Shown in pieces: positions 7,914 to 11,002 of a stretch of 28,246 nt of DNA. Within the stretch, counting starts at the first letter, position 1, and each line of letters starts with the position of its first letter. This DNA comes from Gemmatimonadota bacterium (GTDB taxonomy: Bacteria; ARS69): the NCBI GenBank assembly GCA_030747075.1, contig JASLLL010000032.1, positions 1 to 28,246 of the forward strand, written 5' to 3'. The notes under the pieces were generated by a model. The model was not told the origin of the DNA and ran no database searches. It was given only the letters and a program-made list of their open reading frames with translations. The translations under genes and the position numbers were made by a program.

Positions 7914-10211
7914 CTACGGACAGGAGTCGAAGAAAGTGCTCGTGCTGTCTCCGACAAAACCGGCCGGACCGATGTGGTTCGTCAACGAGTCAGCGTCCGC
8001 CACATTCCCGCAGAAGAAGGAGGCGGTGAGCGTCACCGAGGAGGTGCCATTCCAGATATCCATCCCGCCGCCTTCATACCTCGCGTGGTTGCCACCGAAG
8101 GTGGAACCGCTCACGGAGAGGGTTCCCTGGCTGTGCTTAATCGCGCCGCCATCGTCTCCCGTGTTCCGGGTGAAGACGCAGTCCTGCACAATCAGATGGT
8201 CACCTTCCGAATTGATGGCGCCTCCGTCATCGTCTGTTGTGTTGGAATCGAACTCGCAGGAGAAGAACGACACCGAGTTGCTCCAGATGCAGACTGCGCC
8301 GCCGTCGTCATCGGGAGCGTAGTTGCCCCGGAAGACGCAGTTCGTGAAGGTGATGGGGGGGGAATCACTACCGCCGCCCTCGAAGTGGACGGCGCCGCCC
8401 GCATCGTCGGACTCGTTGTTCTCGAACAGGCAGTCCGTGAAATGAACGACCTGAGCGGGGTCATCCAGATCGTCGACGATCACCGCTCCACCGTCGTCGT
8501 AGCCGAAGCTCCCCGTGAAGGCGCAGTTGGTCACCGTGCCACTGCTGGCGTAAAAGCGCAGCGCCCCGCCCTCATCGTCGGACTCGTTATCCGAGAAGGT
8601 GCACCCGATGAGTACTGCGGAAGAGGAGCCGCCGTCGTTGTCTACATCCAGGGCGCCTGCGTCGTCGTCGGCGTAGTTGTCGTCAAACACGCAATTCTGG
8701 AAGGTCGACTGGGAACCACCTTCCACGACCACGGCGCCGCCGTCATAGTCGGAGTAGTTGCCACCAAGATACGAGTCCGACATGACGAGGTTGGAGCTGT
8801 TGTTGACAAACACCGCGCCGCCGTTACTGTCGGCGTAGTTGTCTCGGAACTCGCAGTTCGTCACCGTGAGCGCGGAGCTGTCCTCCACCAGGAGTGCGCC
8901 CCCGTTGCCCTCACGGCCGTTGGTGAAGCTCATTCCCTCCAGAATGGTATCGAGCGTCTCACCACTGTTTGCGTTCACGACGCGTTCCGCGTCGCCGCCG
9001 TCCACGATCACGCTGTCGCGGGGGCCGACGCCGACGATTTGGATCGACTTGCCCAGAAGATCCAGACTCTCGTAGTAAGTGCCCGGGTGGACCGAGATCT
9101 TCCAGTTGGTGGCGGGAGCCGCGTCAATGGCGGCCTGAATGGTGCTGAATTCATACCCCGGACCCACTTGGGAACTCCGTGATACGACATCGACATATCC
9201 GTCAGCCTGGGCAGTCCCGGCCGCATTCGTGATCCGGAACAGCACATGGTAAGTACCCGTGTCCTCGTACTGGTGAAGCTTGTGCACCGGCATGTTGTCC
9301 TGGAAATCCTCGACCACACCATCTCCCCAGTTGATGTGGATATCGAGCATGTTGTGGACCTGATCCGTGTAGGTCACCGCAAGGTTCGCGGTGTCTCCGC
9401 CCGGAACAGCCGGAGCCAGATGGAACGTCCCGATCAGCGGCGTGTACTCCCCGGTCCGAAGACGCGGCGAAAGCGTGGCGGGATAGTCCGCGGCAGCCGC
9501 CCAGGACGCCAGGACACCTGACGACACCCGTGTCACCCCCGAGCCCGTGGACGATGCGCTCAGCATCCCCCAGGAAGCCTCCGCTCGGGATGCGTCGGCA
9601 GCGGACGGAAGACCCATGTGGAACACCGTCTCGCCGGCGCTCCGGAACGAGATGAAGTTCACTGCCGCCGTCCGAGCCGGGGACACGGCATTCTCGTCCG
9701 CGAACGCGGTCCATGCCGGGTCGTGCTCCACGACGGTCTCCACCTCCAGCGTCACGGCCGAAGCCGGGAGTCCCGGGTCAGAGGAGAAACTCACGGAAGG
9801 CGAAAGATCCCGATGCACCATGGGAATCTTCAGATCCACTCCGGAACCGTACATCCCGGGGAAGACCGTAGCCCGACCGGTCGCCTCGGGAGAGACCGTT
9901 GCCGGAGAGATGCTCCACACCACACTCCCGAACTCATCACGCGCAACCAGATCGCCGGGGCGAAGCACCACGGAGTACTCTCCACTGGTGACTTCCACGA
10001 ACGAGCCGCTTGCGTCCACGCCGGAGTCCCAGTCCATGGAACCGCTGGCCGCGGTCGCGGGACCGTCCTCCTGAAGGACAGGAATGCCCGTGGGCGTTTC
10101 ATCGGACTGCCGCGCATCCCGGGCACATCCCGAGAGCAGGGCCAGCGTGGAGAGTGAGACGACCGCAAGCCGCAAAAGGCGCGATCGAGTGGGGGGAGAG
10201 AGTCGAAACAC
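7914..10211 (-). CDS. Lipoprotein with PKD-like domain and right-handed beta-helix of GGA repeats
   Basis: A 765-residue exported lipoprotein of unknown specific function. A basic N-terminus and hydrophobic stretch lead to the lipobox LLSGC, with C29 as the lipidation site. Residues 60-270 are unassigned beta-rich sequence. Residues 275-343 look like a PKD domain (INWGDG and YEDTGTYHVLFRI). From about 350 (FSTIQAAIDAA, as in pectin-lyase folds) to 740 runs a parallel beta-helix. It has 11 GGA-type turns at about 27-residue spacing, each with an acidic run before GGA and most with a Cys-x-Phe strand such as NCVF. The pattern resembles the repeats of polymorphic outer-membrane proteins, but I see no autotransporter barrel and no sorting tail. 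The GTG start is chosen because AGAGG lies 6 bases upstream and it begins a proper signal peptide; the open frame continues upstream. It is a monocistronic unit with its own promoter and terminator. Confidence 0.88.
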   Translation of the reverse strand: MFRLSPPTRSRLLRLAVVSLSTLALLSGCARDARQSDETPTGIPVLQEDGPATAASGSMDWDSGVDASGSFVEVTSGEYSVVLRPGDLVARDEFGSVVWSISPATVSPEATGRATVFPGMYGSGVDLKIPMVHRDLSPSVSFSSDPGLPASAVTLEVETVVEHDPAWTAFADENAVSPARTAAVNFISFRSAGETVFHMGLPSAADASRAEASWGMLSASSTGSGVTRVSSGVLASWAAAADYPATLSPRLRTGEYTPLIGTFHLAPAVPGGDTANLAVTYTDQVHNMLDIHINWGDGVVEDFQDNMPVHKLHQYEDTGTYHVLFRITNAAGTAQADGYVDVVSRSSQVGPGYEFSTIQAAIDAAPATNWKISVHPGTYYESLDLLGKSIQIVGVGPRDSVIVDGGDAERVVNANSGETLDTILEGMSFTNGREGNGGALLVEDSSALTVTNCEFRDNYADSNGGAVFVNNSSNLVMSDSYLGGNYSDYDGGAVVVEGGSQSTFQNCVFDDNYADDDAGALDVDNDGGSSSAVLIGCTFSDNESDDEGGALRFYASSGTVTNCAFTGSFGYDDGGAVIVDDLDDPAQVVHFTDCLFENNESDDAGGAVHFEGGGSDSPPITFTNCVFRGNYAPDDDGGAVCIWSNSVSFFSCEFDSNTTDDDGGAINSEGDHLIVQDCVFTRNTGDDGGAIKHSQGTLSVSGSTFGGNHARYEGGGMDIWNGTSSVTLTASFFCGNVADADSLTNHIGPAGFVGDSTSTFFDSCP
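8038..8903 (-). repeat. Coding tandem repeats, 11 beta-helix turns
   Basis: The repeats encode residues 437-716 of the lipoprotein. GGA-type triplets begin at residues 437, 464, 491, 518, 548, 574, 605, 637, 663, 688 and 714, so the spacing is 25 to 32 residues, mostly 26-27. The consensus is roughly N-x-x-D-D-D-G-G-A-hydrophobic, then about 12 residues, then C-x-F. The repeats are diverged at DNA level, so they are structural and not recent duplications. Coordinates are approximate. Confidence 0.8.
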
Positions 10212-10293
10212 GGTGCACCTCTTCGTTGAAGGATATGGCTGGTCGATAGAGCACCGCACGCCACGAGCTAGAGACTCACCGCGCAGATGGGAT

Positions 10294-10428: not shown

Positions 10429-10980
10429 CTAGCGGCCCGCTACTGCCCACAGGAGGGCCTTCAGAGAGTCGTAGTGGGCCGGATTCCCCAGATCCCCCGT
10501 CGTCAGATTGAAGACGGCCACCGGGACATTCTCCTCGTCAAGGACGACCACATCCCGGTAGGTCACGCTCCAGACGCCCCAGACATTCTGGTCTGCTACA
10601 TCCTGAAGCCAGGGAAGATCCCTTCCGTTGCAGATCTCTTCATTGCCGCCCGCGCTGTCCATCCGGTTCACGCCGACGAGGGCAATCTCCAAGGGCGTTC
10701 CTTCTCCGTCCAGTTCCCGCTGCATTCTGTCCAGGTGCCCAAACTGGGCGCGACAGTAGCCTCAGGTGGCCGAGCCGAAATACCAACCGGAGACGCGGTC
10801 CAGGTGGTCCCGGGGGGATACAGCCTCTCCGGCGGTGGATGAAGTGGGGTTCTGATCCGCCAGGGCAAAGTCGGGGGCGGGGTGGGCGGAGCCTCCCGGC
10901 CCGGTGCCGGTTTCCTTGCCACAGGCGGCCAGCACAAGCAGCAAGGCCAGCCCTGCTCTTCCGGGGCCGAAAGACCGCAT
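10429..10980 (-). CDS. Thioredoxin-like lipoprotein, predicted selenoprotein (in-frame TGA as Sec in UxxC)
   Basis: I read this as one 183-residue gene with a TGA at 10762-10764 decoded as selenocysteine. The N-terminus is a signal peptide ending in the lipobox LVLAAC (C20). A PDFAL segment typical of redoxin/TlpA-like proteins follows at about residues 36-40. Next comes GWYFGSAT-U73-G-Y-C76-RAQFGHLD, where the TGA replaces the first cysteine of the CxxC active site. The frame then stays open for 110 more residues, with plausible thioredoxin-fold strands (IALVGVN, VVVLDEENVPVAVFNL), to a TAG. A SECIS-like hairpin starts 5 nt after the TGA. The start has GGGAG five bases upstream and lies 22 bp after the YigZ-family gene, so the two are probably cotranscribed. 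The likely role is an extracytoplasmic thiol/selenol redox reaction; the partner is unknown. A sequencing error of TGC or TGT is the main alternative and would give an ordinary CxxC protein. Confidence 0.8.
10727..10756 (-). promoter_or_regulatory. Predicted bacterial SECIS hairpin
   Basis: Counting from the base after the TGA, an outer stem CUGUC/GACAG (nt 6-10 with 31-35) encloses an inner stem GCCCA/UGGGC (nt 13-17 with 21-25) capped by the loop GUU (nt 18-20). The apical loop starts 18 nt after the TGA with a G in first position. Bacterial SECIS elements such as that of E. coli fdhF place a small G-containing apical loop at about this distance. Hand folding only. Confidence 0.65.
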
Positions 10981-11002
10981 GGTTTCTCCCTTTTCCGTTC
11001 CC

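Follow-up and report, generated by a model that had tools for sequence, protein, structure and literature searches.

A gene on the minus strand of the window (the whole 28,246-nucleotide stretch of DNA analysed here) is predicted to encode a selenoprotein of the NCBIfam family NF053656, with the TGA at codon 73 read as selenocysteine (Sec). We put the probability of this reading at about 0.93. The product is most likely a Sec-dependent thiol oxidoreductase, predicted to act at the outer face of a membrane. The prediction draws on a TGA codon that is conserved across distant bacterial lineages, a covarying hairpin directly downstream of it, and a full set of Sec machinery genes in the source genome.

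The gene and its family

The reading frame comprises 183 codons, and its sole internal stop is the TGA at codon 73, which is preceded by 72 open codons and followed by 110 (Table 1). The TGA takes the place of the first Cys in a CxxC-type motif (SATUGYC). An earlier note on this DNA had described this arrangement with correct coordinates and counts, leaving the strand unstated, and had placed the TGA at the first cysteine position, as found here. It had also recognised a lipobox signal peptide and a PDFAL segment ahead of the TGA. Both are present, with PDFAL at residues 36–40 and the lipobox and signal peptide judged by eye.

Table 1. Features of the TUGYCR-family gene, in window coordinates
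Feature	Position	Strand	Remarks
TUGYCR-family selenoprotein gene (predicted), 183 aa with Sec73	10429..10980	-	ATG start 10980-10978; stop TAG 10431-10429 included
Shine-Dalgarno-like GGGAG	10986..10990	-	5 nt upstream of ATG; by eye
Lipobox LAAC, Cys20 = predicted lipid-anchored N-terminus	10921..10932	-	aligned Cys invariant in 19 members
In-frame TGA, predicted Sec, residue 73, UxxC motif	10762..10764	-	18 distinct members have TGA; L023 has TGT (Cys)
Cys76 codon, resolving-type Cys of UxxC	10753..10755	-	invariant in 19 members
Bacterial SECIS hairpin: upper stem GCCCA/UGGGC (5 bp) 10749-10737, loop GUU 10744-10742, lower stem CUGUC/GACAG	10727..10756	-	fits published model
Arg142 codon, RDV motif, cis-Pro position of TlpA-type proteins	10555..10557	-	invariant in 19 members

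The protein matches NF053656 (redoxin_TUGYCR, ‘TUGYCR motif thioredoxin fold (seleno)protein’) with 214.6 bits (E = 5.1e-64; curated cut-off 100) over nearly the full profile, positions 2–145 of 146. The motif that names the family, TUGYCR, is found letter for letter at residues 72–77. No difference from the family was found, and the window protein is a member. The gene had been put forward as a new candidate selenoprotein, which as a claim about the family does not hold, since NF053656 is already in NCBIfam (release of June 2026). A literature search found no paper naming the accession or the TUGYCR motif. Similarly, the accession is not among the 119 prokaryotic selenoprotein families and subfamilies tabulated in May 2026 (PMC13188914). 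That table lists a ‘Redoxin family protein’ with PF08534 and a UxxC motif (HEU0032618.1; PMC13188914), which could be the same group as the TUGYCR family.

Conservation of the TGA

With the protein and NF053656 as queries, we retrieved a family set of 19 members, all of which match the profile. These comprise 18 distinct Sec-type (U-form) sequences, including that of the window, and one cysteine form. The same TGA codon column is shared by all 18 U-form members, which represent four phylum-level groups. Besides the window, they are found in one genome of its own phylum (G001), 13 genomes of a second phylum (that of G029), two of a third (that of G318), and one Polyangia record. One sequence from the second phylum (G193) is the same as that of a Candidatus Latescibacterota record (L021), and the pair is counted once. 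The remaining member, a Myxococcales homologue (L023), carries TGT at the Sec site, giving CxxC. The comparison that the earlier note had proposed, for homologues with U or C aligned at this site, therefore comes out in favour of Sec, with 18 distinct U forms and one C form.

Conservation extends beyond the TGA. Identity between the window protein and the 18 homologues is 51–70% before the codon and 40–55% after it; the region behind the TGA is therefore coding. The earlier suggestion that the 110 downstream codons have thioredoxin-fold character agrees with the predicted fold. The distribution of the family is patchy, with members in 13 of 80 genomes in G029's phylum and in five of a spread of 386 genomes. 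A search of viral contigs found no relative.

Two other kinds of locus were seen. In a genome of the same taxonomic family as the source, a locus (L031; G004 C118:3080–3196) matches only the last 39 positions of the NF053656 profile, and is either a broken copy or cut by a contig end. TlpA-like frames in genomes G101 and G445 (L058, plus strand from 1279; L068, minus strand from 1285) each contain a single in-frame TGA, located where the first Cys of CxxC would stand (ATWUGIC). They are probably another UxxC selenoprotein, of a different lineage.

A covarying SECIS hairpin

Bacterial SECIS elements have been modelled as hairpins with a loop of 3–9 nt, a G in the first two loop positions, an upper stem of 4–16 bp, a distance of 16–37 nt from the UGA, and a minimum free energy of at most -7.5 kcal/mol (PMC13188914). 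The hairpin downstream of codon 73 agrees with this model throughout. In the window sequence, the spacing from UGA to loop is 17 nt, the first loop base is G, and the energy is -13.3 kcal/mol with the lower stem included. Conservation is seen for the upper stem, while the lower stem (CUGUC/GACAG) is a feature of the window sequence only.

Across 18 members, the upper stem is paired in 84.9% of cells, compared with 73.2% in shuffled controls (0/500 as high). Four of the seven stem pairs show changes on both sides, amounting to 13 double-change cells where shuffles give 3.8 (0/500), and stem covariation is 0.325 against 0.132 (0/500). When the partner strand is shifted by a single base, pairing falls to 42%. 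Two of the four shuffle-control measures, which count pairs or types, are not extreme (75/500 and 38/500). In one pair, the second base of codon 78 pairs with the silent third base of Gly81. Where the partner is C (three sequences), Gly81 is always GGG; where it is G (15 sequences), Gly81 is always GGC or GGT (Fisher p 0.0012, a guide only, as the sequences share ancestry). Protein-level constraint does not explain covariation at this silent base.

In the window sequence, taken alone, the stability of the hairpin is nothing unusual against shuffles (z -0.89), and the case for it rests on covariation. Both stems appear in a 39-nt fold. The 60-nt fold after the UGA retains the upper hairpin alone and has no unusual stability (z 0.65). 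An Rfam search gave no family at the UGA, and the cysteine homologue (L023) lacks the hairpin.

Sec machinery of the source genome

The source assembly (2.67 Mb, rated 100% complete) contains all four of the genes whose presence the earlier note had wished to see checked. These are selC, encoding tRNA-Sec (73 bits; ARAGORN agrees, anticodon TCA), selB (357 bits, across two pieces of one frame), selA (535 bits), and selD (364 bits). The selD gene itself (G000 C4:62873–63799; L025 1501–2427, minus strand) has an in-frame TGA at the active-site Sec position (SHCAGUASKIG), and SelD of this genome is therefore a predicted selenoprotein.

Among the genomes with a U-form member, no selA match was found in G238 (90% complete) or G001 (67% complete), perhaps due to their fragmented draft state. 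Within G029's phylum, selA occurs in 78 of 80 genomes, and because it is near-universal there, its co-occurrence with the TUGYCR family adds little.

Could the TGA be read otherwise?

A lone TGA in an open frame would, in isolation, look the same if it were a true stop, whether because the gene is a pseudogene or because an ordinary CxxC redoxin gene had been missequenced. This is very improbable. The same codon recurs in 18 distinct members from four phylum-level groups, conservation runs on past it, and the stem that follows covaries. Sequencing error in particular is implausible because independent genomes carry the same TGA. Reassignment of UGA in this organism, or generic suppressor decoding independent of a Sec system, would likewise lead to read-through of the codon, and we regard it as the least credible reading of all. 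The full Sec machinery is present, and TGA serves as the stop codon of other window genes, among them the upstream UPF0029-family gene (11650–11003). Further, the SECIS-like hairpin is conserved, and the one homologue lacking the TGA carries Cys at the site.

Predicted fold and relation to known proteins

An AlphaFold2 model built from the 19-row alignment, with Cys in place of Sec, has a mean pLDDT of 88.8. The nearest solved folds are those of ResA, DsbE-like proteins, and CcmG (Foldseek E about 2e-9). The best VIA-align match has Z 17.8 and 2.2 Å over 138 residues, and peroxiredoxins follow close behind (Z about 15.8). A sequence search of solved structures gave nothing significant, either for the single protein or for the family profile. 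Matches to Pfam are weak: AhpC-TSA (PF00578) is matched in 8 of the 19 members and Redoxin in 5, and the window protein scores 15.4 bits against PF00578, below the gathering cut-off of 26.

The family resembles the ResA/TlpA/CcmG (DsbE) group in predicted fold (Z 15–18), in predicted export and membrane anchoring, and in an active site placed where the first long helix of the thioredoxin fold begins. It differs from this group in having Sec for the first Cys, and in that no solved chain significantly matches its profile by sequence. It also differs at the cis-Pro: in a joint sequence alignment with TlpA-type proteins, all 19 members have Arg (in YRD, WRD, or IRD) aligned with the Pro of the PT/PS motifs. 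Among tabulated selenoproteins, the Prx-like thiol:disulfide oxidoreductase (PF00578, UxxC) and the Redoxin family protein share the UxxC motif and the weak AhpC-TSA/Redoxin similarity (PMC13188914, Table 1), although the window protein falls below the Pfam cut-off for the former.

Proposed function

The lipobox, the fold model, the full Sec machinery, and the conserved TGA all support the earlier prediction of an exported, lipid-anchored UxxC thioredoxin-fold selenoprotein. In such a protein, UGA73 would be decoded as Sec by SelB and tRNA-Sec, directed by the SECIS element directly downstream. The mature protein would be anchored via Cys20, with a thioredoxin domain that folds like TlpA/ResA. 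Sec73, where the first long helix begins, would serve as the selenol that attacks an oxidised substrate, Cys76 would resolve it as a selenenylsulfide, and a partner at the outer face of the membrane would re-reduce the enzyme. Plain thiol-disulfide exchange is, by a modest preference, the reaction that we favour.

Sec could also be retained in a protein of different function, such as a selenoperoxidase resembling peroxiredoxins or GPx, or some other enzyme acting on small substrates. The TUGYCR family has invariant Arg142 in place of the TlpA-type cis-Pro, and in peroxiredoxins a catalytic Arg lies in this region of the fold. Because of this exchange, a small-molecule or peroxide substrate is a serious rival. 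The weak Pfam matches and the nearly equal peroxiredoxin fold score point the same way, while the best fold matches are to ResA/DsbE/CcmG-type reductases, and the motif is UxxC rather than the TxxU given for Prx selenoproteins (PMC13188914). On balance, we judge a selenoperoxidase or similar enzyme to be a substantial minority possibility. More tentatively still, the invariant Arg might mark a distinct class of extracytoplasmic selenoenzyme, whose substrate is a small oxidant or some other non-protein compound and not a protein disulfide; we think this less likely than not.

Gene neighbourhoods indicate no substrate or partner, because neighbouring genes are not conserved. No operon partner recurs across the family loci, and the neighbours vary, several of them encoding proteins that are exported or at the surface (beta-helix, lamin-tail, C25 peptidase, and calcineurin-like). 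In the window, the gene downstream (7914–10259, minus strand) encodes a 781-aa lipoprotein-like beta-helix protein that carries repeats of the Chlamydia-PMP type and weakly matches PKD. Near the selenoprotein gene, three genomes of a single genus encode a secreted protein of very large size (L079 9661–14496, minus strand; L086 1516–6561 and L092 1742–6673, plus strand); that of L079 combines a C25 peptidase domain with FG-GAP repeats and a FlgD_ig tail.

Implications

The earlier remark that Sec-containing redoxins appear less common outside the cytoplasm is weak, given that several family names of extracytoplasmic type are already tabulated: DsbG-like, DsbA-like, thiol:disulfide interchange, BtuF, SaoB/SaoX, and TonB receptor (PMC13188914). 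What the gene does contribute, to a family already in NCBIfam, is a well-supported Sec example that has a covarying SECIS element and a naturally occurring Cys homologue. Where the TGA is taken as a stop, such a gene is split in two. The invariant Arg, finally, provides a testable lead on the function of the TUGYCR family.
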